Positions 34,231 to 46,860 of a DNA stretch of 64,000 nucleotides are shown here, piece by piece. The translations under genes were made by a program, and so were the position numbers. This DNA is from Ziziphus jujuba. Its lineage: Eukaryota > Streptophyta > Magnoliopsida > Rosales > Rhamnaceae. The notes under the pieces are model-generated. The model ran no database searches. It was not told the DNA's origin and saw only the letters and a list, made by a program, of their open reading frames with translations. Position 1 is the first letter of the stretch, and the number at the start of each line of letters is the position of its first letter. The stretch covers positions 2,616,501 to 2,680,500 of the forward strand of contig NC_083381.1 of assembly GCF_031755915.1 (NCBI RefSeq), read 5' to 3'.

Positions 34231-37200
34231 ATGGCGAATCTTCCCCAGTCGCTATCAATGAATGTGGGATTTGGAGGTCCAAGTGCATCAACACCAAGCG
34301 TATCAGGTGCTCAAGGAAACAAAGATAGGAAAATGGCATCGGCTGAACACTTGGTTCTTGAGCTCAGTAACCCTGATCTTAGGGAAAATGCTTTGCTTGA
34401 ACTCTCCAAGGTAAACTACCTTTCTACATTCTTTCAAGGGTCTTCTTTTTGCTGGTTGGAAATGCTGAATGTTTGGTTTTTATTGACCTTTAGAATTTTG
34501 GTTTGAAGGTGTAATGATTGGTCTCATTCTTGCAGAGAAAACTGTTTGATGTGCTAGAAATTGATTTCGTTTTCCTGTGCCTATAATCTGGCCTCCTTGT
34601 CTTAGTAGTTTCATCACCTTGAGTTGAGTATAGAATTATATGTATTCTATTTATATAAAGTTTCTCAGCAAGCCATTTTGGCACTTCCATGTTTAATCTT
34701 TTGATGCATCTTTGAGAGTTTTGTTTATTCGTTAATGGAAATATGAATTTAGGCTTGTTTTTATACATTTTTTCTTTGTTAAACAAAATTGATAGCTGGA
34801 TATATGTTTAGTCTTTTTTCCATTTGAACTAGTGTAGTTATGCTTGCTGGGAATCGAAGTAATATAACAAGCATGAGAACATTTGAGTCATATGTCATTT
34901 GATATGATAGAAGAATATGGTATTAGTTATGGTCCTTTAGAGGTTTCTCTAATGTGTAATAGAGGAGGAAGATTGGCCTCACTAAATAATTGTTTCAGCT
35001 AAACTATTGTGGTTAAGAATTAAGAATTGGTAGCTCCATGGCATTCTAGCTCCTCTCCTCTGTTAGCAGAAAGTTTATGGTTGGGGTTTATAAATGAAAG
35101 CAAAGGATGCCTGGAGGTGTGCAGTTTTAGCATTGATTGATGGGGTTGGTAGGGACGAGAGCTAGTAAGTTTTGTATGAATAAGTTCATATTTTGGCATA
35201 GTTTTGGTGTTGTACAGCCTAGGAATTTGGCAGAGTTTCTTCTTTTAGAATTAACGTAGATTGGTGCAAGTCATTTTATCTTTCTATTACTTGTATTTGC
35301 TGATGTTCTGTTTGTTTGTGTATATGGTAGGACTGTGGATTCTTAACTGTGAACTACTCTCAGTTTAATAAAATTAATTTCCTAAATAAAACACAAAAGA
35401 AAAAAATGATATTAGTAGTAGGAAAAAATGGACTATTTTTTTTTTTTTTTAATAGTTTTCTATGAGATATACTCTTTTTCCTTTCTAACTAGGTGGTTAA
35501 ATAAATTTTGACAGATACTGATATAATGGCGTCTAATCAGTAGTTGGTAATGTAACAAATTACTATGGAAGCTTCAGACAGCATGTCTTTAGCATGCAAT
35601 GCAATTGGCTTTTAGAATCTCAAACTCAAATTTGTTATCACATCTCAAGCAGGCTATTATACACATAACAAGCTTCATACCAGATTCCTTCTTCTCCTAT
35701 TTTCTTTTTCCCGTTTGGATGGGGGGTGGGGTTTGGGGTGCGGAGGTGAAGTGAGGTGAGGGGTGTGTGCCAGATAGTTGTACTTTCTTATTGTTTCATC
35801 TATGATTTTTTTTTTTTTTTTAAATAGTTGTATTTTCCTTACCATGAAAATAATTAGCACTGCTAACGTATATGGACATCAAAATATGTTTGACACTTGG
35901 GGTGGGGAGGTGAAGTGAGGTGAGGGGTGTGTGCCAGATAGTTGTACTTTCTTATTGTTTCATCCATGATTTTTTTTTTTTTTTTTTTAATAGTTGTATT
36001 TTCCTTACCATGAAAATAATTAGCACTGCTAACGTATATGGACATGAAAATATGTTTGACACTTGATTGATTTCAATGCAAATTTTTTAAAAACATATTT
36101 ATATAAGTGGTTAAATAATTTATTGAAAGGTTCATACTGGACAGCATGACCTCATAGACAAGTACTGCAATTGTTGGCTGGTCATCTTGTCTACAACCAT
36201 CCAGCTCTAGCTTGGTCTTCTAGTTTCTTGTTTTTGACACTTTTCATGTTTATAGATGAGAGAACATTAATTTGGCCTTTCTTTCGATTCTTAGCTAAAC
36301 TAAAAGGACCGTGGTCTATAATAACTATTATTAAAACTGATAGTAATAATAATCTTTATAACTTAATCTTTTTGCAATATAGAAGTTTAAGGGCCTTGAC
36401 CTTCACCTAAAATTGCTCCAATTGACTTTTGGGCCCCTATACCTTGCTTATGTTCCCATGATATCCTTGCATATGCTCGATGTTGGATTTAGGATGTCAT
36501 AATCTTCCATTGTTAAGGTTTTAGTATCCTTGTCATTACTCAAGGATGGAGGTTGTGTTGTTCCTTTCTTGTTTTGTCATGGTCAAAAGAATTGGAGAAA
36601 CGTTTGATCTTTTAATCTTACTTTTTAAGGTGGCAGTTAATACTTGGTTTTGGTTTGTAAAAGAAAGCTGGGTTCTCATGGGTTTTTCTAGAATTGGTTT
36701 GGTTAGCGAGGATTGCTTCTTTCAACGGCTCTAGAGGAAGTAGAAAAGTATTATGGATTACTGTTTCTTTGTTTTGGTTAACTTGGTTGGAAAGAATTGG
36801 AAGATTATTTGTAGACAGGTACCAAGATTTAATGTTTGTGTGAGATAGGATTAGATTTTTTGCTAATTTGTGGCTTCAACTTCTTGGCAAGTTAAAGAAA
36901 TATCCCTTTTATGCCTCTATTAGGATGAATGGATATTGTCTAATTTAGTATATGTTCTAATCTTTTCATTTCTTATGCAAGATATCTCTTCCTCTTAAGA
37001 CTTGGTGATTTCCTTTACATAAGAAAAATGGTTAATTTCATATACACCTTATGAGGTATGACTTAATTACAAAAACTGTCCCTAATACTTGCTTACAACC
37101 CCTATAGGGGCTGTGGATGATATTAATTTAAGGGGCATGAATGAAAGAATAGCGAAGGAAGATGGCTTTTTGAAATTAGAGAGAATGGTAATGATATTTT

Positions 37201-40200
37201 TAAAATGAGAGGGATCAAATTGTATTTGGGCCAAATTTTAGGGAAGGCCATTGATACTAAACCTATGAGAAAAGAAGGAAAAAAAGTCTTACTTTGGTGT
37301 TAGATGCAACCATTAACTTAACCATGTATCTAGTAGAGGGTGGTGCCCGTACTCCATTTGGCTCCTATAGGGGCTGTGGATGATATTAATTTAAGGGGCA
37401 TGAATGAAAGAATAGCGAAGGAAGATGGCTTTTTGAAATTAGAGAGAATGGTAATGATATTTTTAAAATTAGAGGGATCAAATTGTATTTGGGCCAAATT
37501 TTAGGGAAGGCAATTGATACTAACCCTATGAGAAAAGAAGGAAAAAAAGTCTTACTTTGGTGTTAGATGCAACCATTAACTTAACCATGTATCTAGTAGA
37601 GGGTGGTGCCCCTATTCCATTTGGCTCCTATCCCAACTTTAGTTGTTTGTAACGTTCAGTGCCTCAGCCAAATAATTACCAGCACGTGGATACATTGGCA
37701 AATAACTGTTCTGCCCCATTTTATAAGGATTAATCTGGGTAGTGAATTTCCAATTGGAAGAGATGCTGGGTTTAGACACAAGGGAATTTGTTGCCTTAAG
37801 TACCACTACAGACATGCAGTTGGATGCTTTGACATTTAAGTTGGGCTCTAATGAGGTTACAACATTTGGGTGAAGCCATTGGTATCGGACATTAGAATGA
37901 CCATGGAGATTGTACCAGGATTTATTGTCTCAAGAGAGTTCTTTTATGAGTTTGTTTTGTGGGGCTTAGCATAATTCAGTTAAACAGAAGGAAGGTTCCT
38001 ATAATTTTGGCAGTGCATGGGGATGTCAGAGAGTTAACTTAATTGGTAGAATTTTGGTGTTATTCTATGGACATGGGAATGAAATTTGCTTCATCAGAAT
38101 AGGCAGTCTGTGTAATAGAAGATGGATGTGTCCCATTTTGTAGCATATAGGTTCACTGGTTCTTCAAATGAATGATGAAAGGTGGTGTCTTCATCTTCAA
38201 TATAAATGGGTAAAAAAGAAAGAAGAGAAATTCTGATAGTAAATTTTGTAGGTTTGTTCACATGTGCAATGAATGCATTGGTTGATGTTGTTTCTACTAC
38301 TTATGTGCATATTCTTTTCTTGAGGTGGTTTTGCAATTTTGCTGTCCAGATTAGGTTTGCTGCAATATAAACTTTCTTTGGTTTCATTTTTAGAACAAGG
38401 AATTATTTCAAGATTTGGCTCCTTTCGTGTGGAATACTTTTGGTACTATTGCTGCACTGGTACAGGTATGCCTAATAAACTTCTTTTTGTTTCTGTTTTT
38501 ATTTTAGAAGAGAGAAATATTTCAAGATTTGGCTCCATTGTTGTGGAATTCTTTTGGTACTATTGCTGCACTGTTACAGGTATATTCTTTATGATTGGTA
38601 TATTGTTTTGCTCACAACCATTTTTCATGTTCTTTTGGTACTATTGTTTGTTTCAGTCAAAAATTATTTCCCTGTTGCAAGCTTGGTTTTCTACATTGTC
38701 TTTATATGTGTACTTTCCCAAGTCTTTTTTAATATCTTGATGATTTTAAAAGTGGGAGTTGATATCAGCATAGGAAAAGGGGCTATAGTGGTGATATGGT
38801 CATAAGATGTTTCATTTTTCAGCTGGGAAACAGCTTAGAGAACCAATCAATGTTGTGGTTTCGGTAGCATTTGTCCATATGATTGGATGCACTCCACTTA
38901 GCTTTCTGTGGGGAAGAGGGGGATTTGAGACAACACAGTAAGCTGAAAAGTCGTGTATATAGGAAAATTTTTATCATGGATCTTCAGCAAAAGATCCATA
39001 ATTCTATTGAAACTTTGGTGATTTTGAAATCATTTCATAAATTTTTGGCATACTGAAAATTCTCATAAAGCTCATATCTTTTGAAAGTTTGCTTGAAGAT
39101 GCATTCTTGTAAGACATACCAATCCTAAAAAATAAGCATCTAAAAGAAATTCAATAAACAATGATATGCTATATGTTTTTCTCATAAACAAGTAATACAA
39201 AGCTTAAAAAATTATGAGTAAAAGGGAATGAAGGAATATTAATTACAACTTAGAATAAAAGAGAAAAAGAAAAAGATAGGAATAATGAACAAACTTAGAA
39301 ATGCTATCTCGGTAAGGTTGATATATTCATAACTATAATCGAAACTTTCTTGGAAGTGTAAATCTGATGAAGTAGACTCACGTTATATCACGTACTCTAC
39401 ACATGAAGATAAGGGAAATAGTTATCTCTTAGGAATTCTACTGGAAATTGGTTAACCAGGTAAAAATCATGTATAATTAAAAATAATTGTAATAAGATAT
39501 TACTATAATATGAAAATAAAGATTCTTTTAGTACATAATTAAATTATATAAATGATAAACAACTTCTTAAACTGTCTGTGTGCACAATAATAACCTTAAG
39601 AAATACAACCCTATTATCCACTAGTTTTTATGTATATAACTTTGTAATTAAATGACCTCATAAGAACCTCTTGAACTCTCATTTTGAAATTATTGTGTTT
39701 TCCTCTTAACTTCTGCAATTTCTTTTAATTCTTAGTGATATTTTATTTTGCTGATATTTTCACTGGTATTTTCATATTTTCAAATTCTTCTTTGTATCAT
39801 GGAATGCTGCATCAATTGCATGTGTTTATTGTTTTATCTCTGCACAAATATTAGAGGTATTGTTGGTGTGTCATAAGTTGCTTTATATGTACTGCAGAAT
39901 GGGATTTAAAATCTGTAAATTTCGAATCTTAAATTCCTTTATTGATTTTTATGATAGCCTATCCAATATGTTGTTTGTGTTTCTACCTGTAGGAGATAGT
40001 ATCAATTTATCCTGTTTTATCGCCACCAAATTTGACTCCTGCACAATCAAATCGGGTTTGCAATGCGCTTGCTCTTCTTCAGGTCACATGTTTTACCCTC
40101 TTAAGTTTTATGTCCCATGCTTATACTTGTATCAACCTTGTGCTTTTGTTCCTTTTTTTGAAATTATGATTACATGATCAATTTCAATTCAAAAGCACTT

Positions 40201-43200
40201 TTGCTATGTTTAAGAAAATTAACTTATGTTGTTTCCATTATCGGTCGATACACATCAAACTATAGTGAAGAAAAGAAAAAAACTGTGAATGTAAAATAAA
40301 CTAATATAATAAATATTGTCAGGCCCATTTTCTACCAACTTAAGCTTTTAGGTTCTACCAACTTAAGGTTTTAGGTTGATGATAACTTGAAATACTGTCA
40401 AAACTTTATTAGCATAGAGGTCCCTCAACTTTTTGCCAATTCACTGTGTTGCACATTTAAAGCCCAATTTCTATACCATTATTGTCCACTTCCTACAATT
40501 CAAGCTTTTGCTATTAGTGGTAACTAAACAAAGCTGTTAGCAGCACTTTGTGTTATTATCATTGTTTCTTTGTTTTCTTGCAGTGTGTAGCTTCCCACCC
40601 AGATACAAGGATGTTGTTCCTCAACGGTAATATTGTTGATCTTTACAAGAAGCTTTTGCACATTTGTTGGTGGTGTGATTGTTTCTTTTGTTTCAACTGC
40701 CTTCAAGCATGAAAAGTATATGTGCTGTAATCTATCATTTAATATGTTTTAATCCTCTTGTTTTTATATGTTTGTACACTCCTATTTGGTTTTCCTCCTC
40801 AATATTTACAGTATTCTTGATAACAAACCAATATATACTCAATGTCAAATAACTCAACCTAGGAAGCTATCACAGCTTGAGCTTGTAATTTATAATAAGA
40901 TTTTTTTTTTCTGATTGTGGCATGAACGAGGAAGTGGTTTCTGTGAAGTGCCGATAATTTTATTCTTAGGAGACAATTAATTGTGGGGATGTATGGTTAG
41001 ACAGTTTTGCCAGTGGCCCAGTGAGTAAACAAACAATTTTTGTGTATTTGATTGGCTTTTGTGCATTCTCAGGGTCCAAGAAGATGAAATATTGAAAAAT
41101 AAATAAAGTGACACTAGCAACAATTCTGCTTTCCCAGTAATAATAGTAACTGTGAACCTCATAGGCTGAAATGAATCTGGGTTTGGATTGATGTCAGGAG
41201 AAAAAAGTATGAATTGGTGGGTCTAGAATGTCAAATAAAACTTAGGACTAGTATTTCTGTGGTACAGATAAATTAAATGATCTTCTCTGCACTAGTATTT
41301 CTGTGGTACAGATAAATTACATTATCTTCTCTGTTTTACAAATTTACTAATCTACTTTTATATATATCAAAATTATAAAGACTTCCCTTGATGTTCGTTT
41401 ATGTTGCAATTTGCATCCATCCATAAAAACTTCTCTGATTGAAGTTTAGATATAATTGAACTTATAGAATGCAATATGTGGATTCAGGAAAAATTTTTGT
41501 CAACTTATAAATCATATAGAATTATGACTTGGAATTATTTAGCTATGCAAGCATTATTAATCTATGCGCTAGCCAAGAAACTTGACCATTCTTATGCTAT
41601 AACTTGCCACAATATCTTTTTCATACTAAAAATTTTCTTACATTTAAGGTGTATTTCCCTGGATACCCCTCTTGAGACATGTGTATATCGAATTTTTTTA
41701 TCAATTAAATATTCAACATGGGAAGGAGTATTTAACAAGTTTTAGTATCTGGTATGGATTTGTGTCCTTTTTAGACTGATTTACTTTGATGGCAGTTTTG
41801 GTGCTATGTTTTGTTTGTAAGTTGTGATTGTGATGGAAACAGGCACAAAGCCTTGAGTTCATTTCCAAACTTAATTTCAAGTAATTCAAGCTGCTTTCTG
41901 GAATACATATGTTTTAATTTTACAGAAATATTTATCATACTAAAATTTTGTCCTTTTCAGCCCATATACCTTTGTATCTCTATCCTTTCCTTAATACAAC
42001 AAGCAAGTCAAGACCCTTTGAGTACCTGAGGCTCACTAGTTTAGGTGTCATCGGTGCCTTGGTGAAGGTAATTAATCCGTTTTTAACATTACCTTGCATG
42101 TATACCATATGTTTCTTTTCCATTTTCTCTTCATTGTAAACATATTTAGCATAGTAAGGCTGACGTAACATTATTCAAGTAGAGGTTTAGAATTTGTTTA
42201 GCAGAATGTGGTATTCTATCTTAGAATTTATATTTTGTTACCTTTTACTGTCCTGGGAACCTTTGGGATCTCATTTTCCGACATTTTTGAGGAATGGGTA
42301 ATGGTCCCCATATAAGATTGCGACTTTTAATAAGAAGCTGTTCAAACCAACCTAAAACTATTTCTTATATAAAGCATTGAGTTTCCAGTGAGTTTGAACA
42401 TGGGGATATCTGCTACAATATTATTCTCTTGCCCCTCCTTTCCCTTCCTACTTTCCTTTTGCACATTTTCTGTGCTTGGTAGTAAACCTTTTACCCAATT
42501 TTAAATTCTTTTATAATTAATATAGTTTCTAATTTATAATTTCTAATTTTGAATTTTTTTTTCTTTTTTCCTTGCCAGGTTGATGATACAGAAGTTATTA
42601 GTTTCCTTCTCTCTACAGAAATAATACCCTTGTGCTTGCGCACGATGGAGATGGGAAGCGAATTATCAAAAACAGTTTGTTTTTATAAATTTCCTTCAAG
42701 AATTTGATTTAATTGATTCTGTTTCACTTGGATTTGAGGTTGTTGCTTGTTTAACAAGTGGTTTCTCTTCTGGCAGGTAGCTACATTTATAGTTCAAAAG
42801 ATTTTATTGGATGATGTGGGTTTGGATTACATTTGTACTACAGCAGAGCGGTTTCTTGCAGTTGGTCGGGTTTTAGGCAACATGGTTGCAGCACTAGCTG
42901 ATAACCCATCTTCGCGTCTGTTAAAGCATATCATCAGATGTTATCTTCGACTGACGGATAATCTAAGGTCGGTTACATAGCAGACCATTTCATTTCTTAG
43001 AGGCTCTCTTTTCTTTCTATTCCCTCTTCCATTATATATTATATGCACATGTTGTCGATTTGTGTTTTATTGGTCCCCATCATGCAGGAGTTCGACTGTT
43101 CTCTACCATTAGTTGGGTCAAATATTAGAAGGCCAAATGTGTAGATATGATATAGGTTTGAAAGCTCCTAATTGTGAAATGAATGAACATCTGTGAAGTT

Positions 43201-44221
43201 GTAATAATTGAGATATGACTAAGATTAAGGGATTTGTAAAATATTAAGCTTTTAGTAAATGGAGCAAACAATTCTAATATAGCACACTTTTCTTCAATGC
43301 TGGTTTTTCCTCAATGGCTTGAGATCGAACGTGAGCCTTATGAGTGTAAATACGACGGAATTCCTAATTTTGAGCAAAAGAACAAACCAATGACAAGGGC
43401 CCTTGGACCTACCCTGTTAAGAAACCCTTCCTTTTTCTGTTCTCTCTCAGAGCATAAGCCTTTAGGAAGTAGGCACTACATCATTAGAGGGCCTGGTATT
43501 AAAAAGTACCAAGATGCAAAATATGACATGATTCTAGGTGCCTAACATGTGGAAAGAAATGGAAACTTTAGAAGAAGTTGTTGAAGAGGTTTGACGATGC
43601 ATAAAAGCTTGGGTTTTTGGGGTGAATCATTTTATGTCTGATAAAACTTTTCTTTTGGTCTTTGTTGCGCAGGGCCTGTGAAGCATTAAGAAACTGTCTT
43701 CCAGACATGTTAAGAGATGCCACTTTCAATGAATGCCTGCGTGTATGTGTTTTCTTTTTCTTTCTTTTTTCCTTTTTTGTTTTTTTGTTTTTTTTTTTTT
43801 TTGGTTCTTTTTTTATTATTTTTTATTGTTTTATTTTTCTAGTCTTTCATGTGGTAATTTTGAGCCCAATTGTTAATCTTTGACATGAAATTTGGTGGTT
43901 TGAGTGAGTTCTTTTTGGGGACTTAAGGAAGTTGATCAACGAAGAGTGGGACTATGAATTTTTTTTTTTTTTTTTCCGAATTTTTTCTTTGATAAGAGGC
44001 AAAACTTTATTGGCAATAAAAGATTCAGTATACAGATTTTGGCGCATGATCTGCAATAGATTAAAAACAAAAAAATGATCCCATCTCATTATTATCATTG
44101 ATGAATGCAGGAAGATCCAACTACAAGAAGGTGGCTGCAGCAGCTGTTGCACAACACCGGGGTAAGCCGTGTTCCATCGTTCCAAGCGGGCGGAGGTTTT
44201 GATCATATGATGGTGAATTAA
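34231..44221 (+). CDS. CNOT9: CCR4-NOT subunit 9 (CNOT9/CAF40, RCD1-like)
   Basis: Armadillo-type scaffold subunit of the CCR4-NOT complex, which shortens mRNA poly(A) tails in the cytoplasm. The coding exons, all with GT-AG borders and matching phase, are 34231-34410, exon 2 (either 38394-38465 or 38508-38579), 39993-40082, 40584-40626, 41961-42067, 42579-42674, 42777-42967, 43673-43742 and 44111-44221. With one exon 2 they total 960 nt, 319 aa, close to plant homologues. Diagnostic segments are [70 protein letters not shown] and [15 protein letters not shown]. The N-terminal ~40 aa are low in complexity. Exon 2 is tandemly duplicated, with 2b the conserved version. Intron 1 is 4 kb and carries two recent tandem duplications. 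Confidence 0.95.
35742..36066 (+). repeat. 164-bp tandem duplication in CNOT9 intron 1
   Basis: 'ggaggtgaagtgaggtgagg' starts at 35742 and at 35906. Each copy continues through 'tgtgccagatagttgtac', a poly-T run of different length, 'ccttaccatgaaaataatt', 'cgtatatggacat' and 'tatgtttgacacttg'. By eye the copies differ mainly in the poly-T run and a few bases, so the duplication is young. Confidence 0.92.
37101..37626 (+). repeat. 263-bp tandem duplication in CNOT9 intron 1
   Basis: 'cctataggggctgtggatga' starts at 37101 and 37364. The copies run in parallel through 'aatagcgaaggaagatgg', 'gggatcaaattgtatttggg', 'gaaggaaaaaaagtcttac' and 'gtatctagtagagggtggtg' and differ at only a handful of positions by eye. 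No coding capacity. Confidence 0.93.
38394..38465 (+). other. CNOT9: CNOT9 alternative exon 2a (72 nt)
   Basis: 24 codons with good splice borders (catttttag|AACAAGG ... GGTACAG|gtatgcc), encoding [14 protein letters not shown]...AALVQ. It differs from exon 2b at 9 of 72 bases and 7 of 24 residues; only one changed codon is silent. Residues that are Leu in the conserved family version are Phe or Val here. It keeps the frame when joined to exons 1 and 3. The excess of replacement changes suggests either relaxed constraint or a diverged function. Confidence 0.8.
38508..38579 (+). other. CNOT9: CNOT9 alternative exon 2b (72 nt, conserved version)
   Basis: 24 codons with borders ttattttag|AAGAGAG ... 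CTGTTACAG|gtatatt, encoding [14 protein letters not shown]...AALLQ, which matches the eukaryote-wide CNOT9 consensus at this point (K-R-E...[16 protein letters not shown]). The gap to exon 2a is 42 nt (38466-38507), shorter than plant introns usually are, so 2a and 2b are unlikely to be spliced to each other. If that gap were retained, its last codon in frame is TAG. Confidence 0.9.
41247..41332 (+). repeat. 44-bp tandem duplication in CNOT9 intron 4
   Basis: 'actagtatttctgtggtaca' starts at 41247 and 41291. Each copy is followed by 'gataaatta' and 'atcttctctg' with two or three differences. Confidence 0.85.
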
Positions 44222-44856
44222 ACTTACTAATATGCAATGTCAATAGGACTGCCTAATTATTTATGATCCAAATTAAATAGTATACCTAGCTTAAGCTTAT
44301 TATTTATCCAAATCAGTTTCTGGTAATAGCATAGGCCAAATTCGGTTCCTGCTAATAGCATGCCATTAGCAAATGTGTTAACATCTTTTATTGATATAAT
44401 GGTTATCCATTTTCCATGGTAACCCATTTCCGAAAAGTGTGAATCAATATAAATCTTTGGCTTTTTCTTTATTTTTCTAGTTTTTTACTTATGCCTATGT
44501 TTAGGTTTCAAAATCCTTTAACTAGCAATGATGTTATTTGAAGTTTAGCTACTTGTCACCATGCCCGATTATTACTAGTAGAATACATAATAACATGACA
44601 ATGGTCTGTTGGTTGTATTTAATGTCTTTTTGATATTTTAAAACTAAAAGCCTATGGGAAAGTGAACCTGTAAGAAGGTAGGCAATTAAATTTAGCATAT
44701 GCCCGTATATGGATTCCATTATAAATGATCACTAGGGGTGATAAATATTATTATTTTTTTGGTAATTAAGCCGTCTGTAAATGGAAAAAGAATAATTGAA
44801 GAGAAATATTTATATCTTGTTTACTTTAGAACATAATAAATTTATAATAACAGTTT
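44222..44856. other. Intergenic DNA between CNOT9 and the subtilase remnant
   Basis: CNOT9 3' flank, AT-rich, no gene or clear repeat recognised. Confidence 0.55.
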
Positions 44857-46860
44857 AACAAAAATAATTTTCCATGTTATTAACTCTAGGTGACACAACA
44901 ATAGAACTCCTTACAAGTTGATTTCCATTTTCTTCGACCCAAACAAACCAACCAAATGGAACGTGTCCTTTGTTGTTGCCTCTATATCTTATTGTCAATG
45001 TATAAGTTTTCCTCTCATTCTTTTCAAATACCAATTTATCTGGTGAGACAGTAATTTCAGTGTCATTTGATCTTGTTGTGTTGGCTTTATAACTTTGTAG
45101 TATCTTTTCCAACATTTGTTACAATCCATTGAAATTTTGTCATTACAATAAAATACGATAAAAGACGGGTAATTAAGATGGGAAGATGGGTTCGAGCAAT
45201 TGTAGTTGTCTCTAATTTGGTAATGCTGGAAACCCTATGTTTTTTATATATAGAGCACAAGAAGTTCAGAGTCTTTTGGAGTTGCATCATAAATCAAACC
45301 TAGATCAAGTGCTTGGTTGGCATTGATAAAACCTGCACCGATTGCTAAAGACGAAGCAGGTTGATAATCGTTTCCATTATCTTGAATTGGTTCAAAAGTA
45401 GCATTTACAATATCTGCAGGAGTTATTATGGAAGACCTAATGGCCACCTGACTCCGATTCGAGTGCAAGCCTTTCAAAAATACAGCAACACCGGCTGCTA
45501 GAGCACAAGCAATAGATGCTCCAGACATTATATTGAAATCACTGTAAGGCACGTCATGTTGAAAAATTGGTAAGTTTTGATGCCAAGCAGCCACAACTTC
45601 GGATCCTGGTGCCATTACGTCCGGTTTCAAAATACCTGAAGCAATTGCTGAAGGACCTCATGAAGTGTAACTAGCCACGGCAGGAGCTGGTTTTTCCCCG
45701 TGATGGTTTGTTTGAATGACATGGTAACCAAGGGTGAGTCAGTTGATGTTACGTATTTCATCAGCATTCCTTCGTCTTTTTGCTTCATCACTACACAAGC
45801 ACATGGTGTATCTTCTACCTCAAATATATAAGGACAATCAGAAATAAAGATTGCAACTTTAACTTTTGACCAGGGAATGAGTACTAATTGAAAAGAAACA
45901 TGTATAAATTCTGGAATGCATATGAGAATTCCATTTAGAGTTTCAAGTATTGCTTTATTACATTTTGACAATTCCTTGCAATAGATTAATGGCATGTTTT
46001 CTAGTGAAGCTTCTCTTGAGTACAATGACCATCCAACAATGGATATTCCTCTTCCAAAACACAAAATCCCTGCGAACCAACATGCAACTGAACTCAATGC
46101 AACTGTCATCACCCAAGAGACACTGTTACAGAGTGTTCCGAGCATTGGTCCGTTATTTCCTCCTGAATTGGAAACTATTATACCTTTTCATGAACCTAAT
46201 GAAAACTGGATCAATATCCAACGGTCCTTGGTTGTTGTCCAAGGAGATGAAAATCACATCAACGCCGTCAGCAATGGCTTCATTTATTCCTGAAAGAACA
46301 TCGGGATCATAACCCTTTTCCAAACCAAGAGACCTTGTAAACAGCTAACCTAGCGAGCAGCACAAAACCTCTTGCTGTCCCGGTAGAAGAACCGAAATAA
46401 GATGCATAGTCTACATAGTTCCCAGCAACTACAGATGACATAAAATTCCTGTGCACTGTAGTGTCTCTAGAAGAGTTCATTCTTATTTTGTAATCTGGCC
46501 GTTCCTTTCTCAATCCCTCACTGGCATATTTTGAACCAATGAATTAGTTGTTGCAATTAGAGGCATTGAAATCTTGTGCAATCTCACATTTTCCCCTCCA
46601 TCTATTTGATGAAATATTTGCGGAGATGCCATGATCATTGAAGCTTTTGTTGTAAGGCCAAATTCCAGAGTCAATTACATCTACAATTACATCTTCACCT
46701 TGTTTTGAAGAATACAAAATCCCACTTGAAGTTCTTGAGGGAGAGAAAATAGGGTGTGTAAGTTGTGTCAAGTGTGACAATTTAGTCCTTGAAGGAAGAT
46801 TGGAAGCCATGGATTTGCTTTATTTTTTCAAAGATATGGTTTACATACAAGCATGAAAAG
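44857..46860 (-). pseudogene. Subtilisin-like serine protease (SBT family) pseudogene
   Basis: Minus-strand remains of a secreted plant subtilase in several frames. From its 5' end: the end of the I9 prodomain (about 46750-46860; HGFQSSFKD then an in-frame stop, continuing VTLDTTYTPYFLSL); the Asp region VIVDVIDSGIWPYNKSF (about 46650-46690); a decayed His region (TVHRNFMSSVVAGN, where the family has GHGTH..S..AGN); AVYKV (about 46320-46350); and the Ser region MSGASIACALAAGVAVFLKG (about 45480-45535). The Fn3-like C-terminal part follows (IVTNVGKDTT, then TVSPDKLVFEKNERKTYTLT and FVWVEENGN..VRSSIVVSP) to about 44857. At least four frameshifts or stops and no signal peptide make it a pseudogene. 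Its introns, if any, were lost or never present. Confidence 0.9.

Follow-up and report, generated by a model that had tools for sequence, protein, structure and literature searches.

A tandem duplicate of exon 2 in the jujube CNOT9 gene, probably one of a pair of alternative exons shared among core eudicots

In alpha-tropomyosin, the mutually exclusive use of exons is reportedly enforced by a branch point that lies close to the upstream donor. Branch points near the upstream donor also enforce exclusivity in vertebrate OGDH, whose exons 4a and 4b are ancient tandem duplicates; there, the branch points are closer to the donor than the roughly 50 nt proposed as the steric limit (PMC7969005). In plants, the Arabidopsis gene FLM/MAF1 contains internal exons that are used singly and change a protein interaction motif; its second exon is confined to MAF1-3 and is described as likely recent (PMC3266260). 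A different kind of plant exon choice concerns terminal exons and may involve separate promoters (PMC6243048). In Arabidopsis, variation around one site for NOT1 and phytochrome A (phyA) binding in NOT9A and NOT9B has been proposed to specify partners (PMC8009681).

Here, a pair of exons in a CNOT9/NOT9 gene of Ziziphus jujuba, termed 2a and 2b, is compared with these systems. Like OGDH 4a/4b, 2a and 2b appear to be ancient tandem duplicates, and like the FLM exons, they are internal exons of a plant gene that would be used singly. In contrast to OGDH and alpha-tropomyosin, this is a plant gene with no more than 42 nt between the exons, and its candidate branch site, with the A at the tenth base of the gap, is a consensus match only. 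Whereas the FLM case is described as young, 2a is a clear exon duplicate in a core subunit of the mRNA decay machinery, and it was found among rosids, Saxifragales and asterids in what we take to be ten orders. The difference between NOT9A and NOT9B arose by gene duplication, whereas 2a and 2b offer a choice between two internal, not terminal, exons within one gene. It is probable that the pair is an old tandem exon duplication that has been kept as alternative exons, which in jujube would be used one at a time and may tune partner binding.

Apart from a skipped CNOT9 exon in grape (PMC8543832), no prior description of the pair was found in the accessible parts of the open-licence literature on plant CNOT9 and CCR4-NOT splicing and on plant mutually exclusive exons, and as far as that literature goes, the pair is of unusual age for plants. 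It may have been overlooked, perhaps because 2a is missing from the Brassicales proteins listed and because mutually exclusive exons are, in the passages available, not among the four types of event considered in a survey of splicing conserved between plants (PMC4374538). The sequence-only reading had called such exons rarely described in plants. In the passages available, this agrees with grape cDNAs, in which 4 of 944 events outside intron retention were mutually exclusive, but not with grape RNA-seq models, in which 781 of 11,842 events were of this type (PMC2646279).

The window is the whole stretch of 64,000 nt that was analyzed (C3:2616501-2680500 of a genome of 394 Mb in 14 contigs). 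It contains the CNOT9 gene with nine coding exons, which encode 319 amino acids with either 2a or 2b. The features are as follows:

34231..34410, plus strand: coding part of exon 1, residues 1-60, from reading through the gene and a protein match from the same genome
34411..38393 (to 38507 with 2b), plus strand: intron 1, 3983 nt with 2a
38394..38465, plus strand: exon 2a, 72 nt, 24 residues, open frame, present in the NCBI isoform X2 protein P0001
38466..38507, plus strand: intervening intron, 42 nt, with an in-frame TAG if retained
38472..38476, plus strand: CTAAT, candidate branch site of 2b, a consensus match with no mapped lariat
38508..38579, plus strand: exon 2b, 72 nt, 24 residues, of the type present in all plant groups listed
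38630..38646, plus strand: 17 nt identical to part of exon 2b, in the intron after 2b
39993..40082, plus strand: exon 3, spliced to 2a or 2b
40584..44221, plus strand: exons 4 to 9 and their introns, ending at the stop codon TAA
40584-40626, plus strand: exon 4
41961-42067, plus strand: exon 5
42579-42674, plus strand: exon 6, 96 nt
42777-42967, plus strand: exon 7
43673-43742, plus strand: exon 8
44111-44221, plus strand: exon 9

The gene belongs to the Rcd1/CAF40/CNOT9 family, with an Rcd1 domain on an armadillo-type fold, and is CNOT9/NOT9/RCD1. With 2a, the gene encodes the same 319 residues as isoform X2 of NCBI LOC107421967 (P0001), which matches Pfam Rcd1 (PF04078) at 413 bits (cut-off 37.7), and human CNOT9 chains match the 2b form at 415 bits. 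Annotated jujube proteins exist for both types, namely P0001 with 2a and P0035 with 2b, the latter from another jujube assembly and without exon 6.

The two exons turned out to be homologous, adjacent, equal in length and phase, and bordered by intact splice sites. The coordinates proposed from the sequence alone, two open 72-nt exons 42 nt apart, were confirmed, and reading of the gap verified that its retention would place a TAG in frame. Codon comparison likewise reproduced the reported seven differences among 24 residues and the single silent codon difference. At the nucleotide level, 9 of 72 positions differ, and eight of these differences change the amino acid. The repeat that spans the exons has a length of 89 nt, an identity of 87% and a spacing of 114; given its length and quality, and its position within exons with conserved borders, it is not a product of chance. 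The exact 17-nt copy downstream of 2b scored 34, whereas none of 500 shuffles exceeded 31, which hints at the relic of a third, lost copy. Intron 1 also contains two tandem duplications, at 35733-36065 (period 166, 96% matches) and at 37101-37631 (period 263, 98% matches), and therefore seems to duplicate readily.

Within the last 20 nucleotides before the exon, the intact acceptors contain 17 (2b) and 16 (2a) pyrimidines, and the donors match U1 at 8 (2a) and 7 (2b) of 11 bases, with 7 matches in the 9-base core of both. The CTAAT in the gap is the only CTRAY match within 70 nt upstream of the 2b acceptor, and its A is 9 nt away from the 2a donor and 32 nt away from the end of the AG at the acceptor. 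No CTRAY was found within 70 nt upstream of the acceptors of 2a and exons 3, 4, 5, 7 and 9; because six other acceptors lack it, the consensus is not required in this gene.

A gap of 42 nt is below the usual minimum for plant introns. With the predicted branch site so close to the 2a donor, the complexes at the 5′ splice site and at the branch point would not both fit, and in jujube, the two exons would thus be used one at a time by steric enforcement. This mechanism is proposed on the basis of a consensus match, and the distance of 9 nt is below the approximately 50 nt cited for animals. Strict mutual exclusivity in jujube, as deduced from the gap and the branch site geometry, would leave the choice between 2a and 2b to competition between splice sites and to cell-specific factors. 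Each version consists of 24 whole codons, and joining both or skipping both also keeps the frame, so that exclusivity rests on the short gap and not on the frame. That all four combinations are in frame is also what would be expected if 2a were a regulated optional exon, with 2a, 2b, both or neither included and the pair not strictly exclusive. The geometry of the jujube gap speaks against this explanation, as the distance from donor to branch site is below the animal threshold (PMC7969005); gene models and grape, as given below, speak for it.

The distribution of 2a was analyzed with 211 distinct plant CNOT9 proteins, the union of three protein searches: a full-protein search (best 120 of 5088 matches), an exon-limited search (best 120 of 384) and a deep-lineage search with 2a set in the context of an early-diverging plant protein (best 120 of 1938). 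With sequence patterns that were written after inspection of the sequences, 34 proteins were typed as 2a, 172 as 2b only and 5 as neither. Of the 34 2a-type proteins, 33 belong to 21 genera: Ziziphus, Malus, Prunus, Rosa, Carya, Morella, Quillaja, Populus, Salix, Mercurialis, Herrania, Reevesia, Hibiscus, Gossypium, Corchorus, Citrus, Pistacia, Vitis, Rhodiola, Davidia and Apium. For Davidia, Apium, Rhodiola, Quillaja and Vitis, the order was verified and is core eudicot; for the other genera it is presumed, and so is the total of ten. The diagnostic differences between 2a and 2b are found at exon residues 1, 2, 11, 12 and 23 in most copies, with exceptions in Morella and Carya (SL replaces FV), P0008 (L at 23), Corchorus (I at 11) and Rhodiola (S at 1). 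P0008 is a 379-residue open reading frame on a contig of 1624 nt, which is too short for the introns of this gene, and it is thus likely to derive from spliced RNA.

Outside the core eudicots, no 2a was found among the best 120 of 1938 matches; the set had been clustered at 90% identity, so that a 2a member could hide behind a 2b representative. The listed proteins without 2a include those of monocots, Magnolia, Persea, Amborella, Victoria, Ranunculales and Proteales, as well as two Gb_ entries, which were taken as Ginkgo. Among the listed Brassicales proteins (Tarenaya, Brassica and Carica) 2a was also not found, and proteins with 2b only include those of Morus, Cannabis, Trema and Parasponia. 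The simplest history would be one duplication on the core eudicot stem followed by losses, which in these data look the same as missing annotation. The duplication would date back at least to the divergence of rosids, Saxifragales and asterids.

These results bear on the nature of 2a. The sequence-only reading had left open whether 2a is a switchable alternative or a decaying copy of the conserved version 2b, and retention in relatives had been named as the check. The 2b type was indeed found in every plant group listed, which, together with the excess of amino acid changes among the nucleotide differences, would suit a duplicate without function. However, the residues specific to 2a recur over ten orders, one and the same 24-residue sequence is found in 18 of the 34 2a-type proteins, and the annotated isoform X2 carries 2a. 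Decay of 2a was therefore rejected as an explanation and is very improbable, and the alternative-exon part of the earlier interpretation stands, supported by the ten orders, isoform X2 and the Citrus pair described below. Within jujube, random introduction of nine changes created a stop codon in 37% of the trials, and changes as mild as those observed were obtained in 1.9% of the stop-free trials; taken alone, the jujube sequence gives weak evidence of constraint on 2a.

The silent sites allow a further rival to be weighed, a recent duplication in jujube with the likeness to other 2a exons due to convergence or repeated duplication. Among 17 codons for shared residues, 2a and 2b differ silently in one, whereas the CNOT9 gene and its paralogue on C1 differ silently in 99 of 259; the probability of one or fewer in 17 is 0.003 (binomial; Fisher P 0.007). 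This closeness could indicate youth, but the same set of 2a-specific residues in ten orders would not be expected from independent origins. The flanks also do not look young: downstream, past a shared GTAT, they do not align, with 9 of 25 nt matching (background mean 7.4, 95th percentile 11). In the upstream flanks, an ungapped comparison gives 17 matches in 42 nt, including 10 in the last 13. A duplication confined to jujube was thus rejected, the 2a-type residues being common to many orders, and the recent origin with convergence is the least credible of the explanations. The exons stayed alike while their surroundings drifted, which points to exon-sized gene conversion or silent-site constraint, and either would fit the low silent divergence better than youth; the comparison is suggestive only, as it depends on the age of the paralogue relative to the exon pair.

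One direct case of one gene with two products was found. The Citrus proteins P0128 and P0148, whose records share the same longest contig, agree at 265 of 265 positions when exon 2 is set aside, and their sole difference is 2a versus 2b. It is the only such case because the nearest 2b protein compared with each of the other 2a proteins is from another species or not identical. Eight gene models contain 2a directly before a 2b-type exon, namely P0002, P0096, P0100 and P0101 of Malus, P0121 of Salix, P0122 of Populus, P0123 of Vitis and P0124 of Morella, and P0026 of Hibiscus is a partial mixture of 2a and 2b. The eight models show order and adjacency of the exons and, taken literally, speak against strict exclusivity in these plants and for an optional 2a. 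However, gene callers may wrongly join adjacent exons, and the models may be such errors.

Grape provides the second observation in favor of optional inclusion, as its CNOT9 (Vitvi19g00539) was scored as exon skipping. Around veraison, inclusion of a coding exon dropped in both varieties (0.46 to 0.15 and 0.28 to 0.09), and at mid-ripening it was 0.05 and 0.03; the available passages name neither the exon nor the paralogue form of this stage-regulated skip (PMC8543832). Weighed against the jujube geometry, an optional rather than exclusive 2a is unlikely.

Exon 2 encodes residues 61-84, which in the model form helices 62-67 and 69-74 and the start of helix 78-87. The predicted structure of the 2a isoform has a pLDDT of 83 and matches human CNOT9 in complex with CNOT1 (4ct6_B) with a TM score of 0.94 by target and 0.80 by query; it was built on a mixed 2a/2b alignment and cannot distinguish the two forms. 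In Arabidopsis, the exchanges H70A V72A A77Y V85Y impair binding of NOT9B to NOT1 and phyA, and NOT9A binds NOT1, with no phyA binding observed (PMC8009681). If the spacing is kept, the counterparts of H70, V72 and A77 would be jujube residues 74, 76 and 81, all encoded by exon 2, and that of V85 would be encoded by exon 3. By this numbering, exon 2 would lie at the site for which NOT1 competes with phytochrome A in Arabidopsis.

The two forms agree at residues 74, 76 and 81, and the differences at 61, 62, 64, 71, 72, 75 and 83 lie beside them; those at 61, 62, 71, 72 and 83 are conserved, and 64 and 75 also differ in jujube. The repeat that the swap would alter is the first one in the fold and adjoins the site that binds NOT1 and phyA. 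As the three mapped residues within exon 2 are unchanged, tuning of partner binding is more probable than an on-off switch; the swap may tune the NOT1/phyA surface, and its effect may be small because the changes avoid the mapped residues. The altered scaffold surface proposed earlier is plausible. If the two forms differ in binding, the formation of distinct CCR4-NOT complexes by splicing becomes directly testable in plants.

We also hypothesize, with somewhat less than even confidence, that a mutually exclusive core eudicot pair, which we take to be more than 100 million years old, swaps the repeat that binds NOT1 and phytochrome and thereby lets a single gene generate two kinds of CCR4-NOT complex, the exons being kept alike by gene conversion and their diagnostic residues held apart by selection.

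Other CNOT9-related sequences were found in the jujube genome. The C1 paralogue (L003) has one exon 2, of the 2b type, and one exon 2 was seen in a divergent relative on C4 (L026), which we label NOT9C-like; among the matches listed for the 2a peptide, no second exon 2 was found in either. A partial copy of the CNOT9 5′ end (L025, 7181-8328) comprises the upstream part, exon 1 and the start of intron 1, with aligned segments of 881 nt (78% identity) and 157 nt (81%). Its exon 1 part (C3:2867839-2868030, minus strand) is about 217 kb from CNOT9 exon 1, and has an open frame with 43 of 60 residues identical; within the 10 kb examined, no later CNOT9 exons were seen near it. Downstream of CNOT9, a subtilase-like stretch on the minus strand (44855-46819) is split over several frames and looks like a pseudogene; of two pieces searched, one gave a match to Peptidase_S8 (35 bits, cut-off 21.8) and the other gave none.

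Exon 6 is skipped in frame in the annotated proteins P0035 of jujube, P0122 of Populus, P0124 of Morella, and P0128 and P0148 of Citrus. Among the nine donors scored in the window, that of exon 6 is the weakest (5 of 11), and this exon is possibly a second conserved alternative exon.
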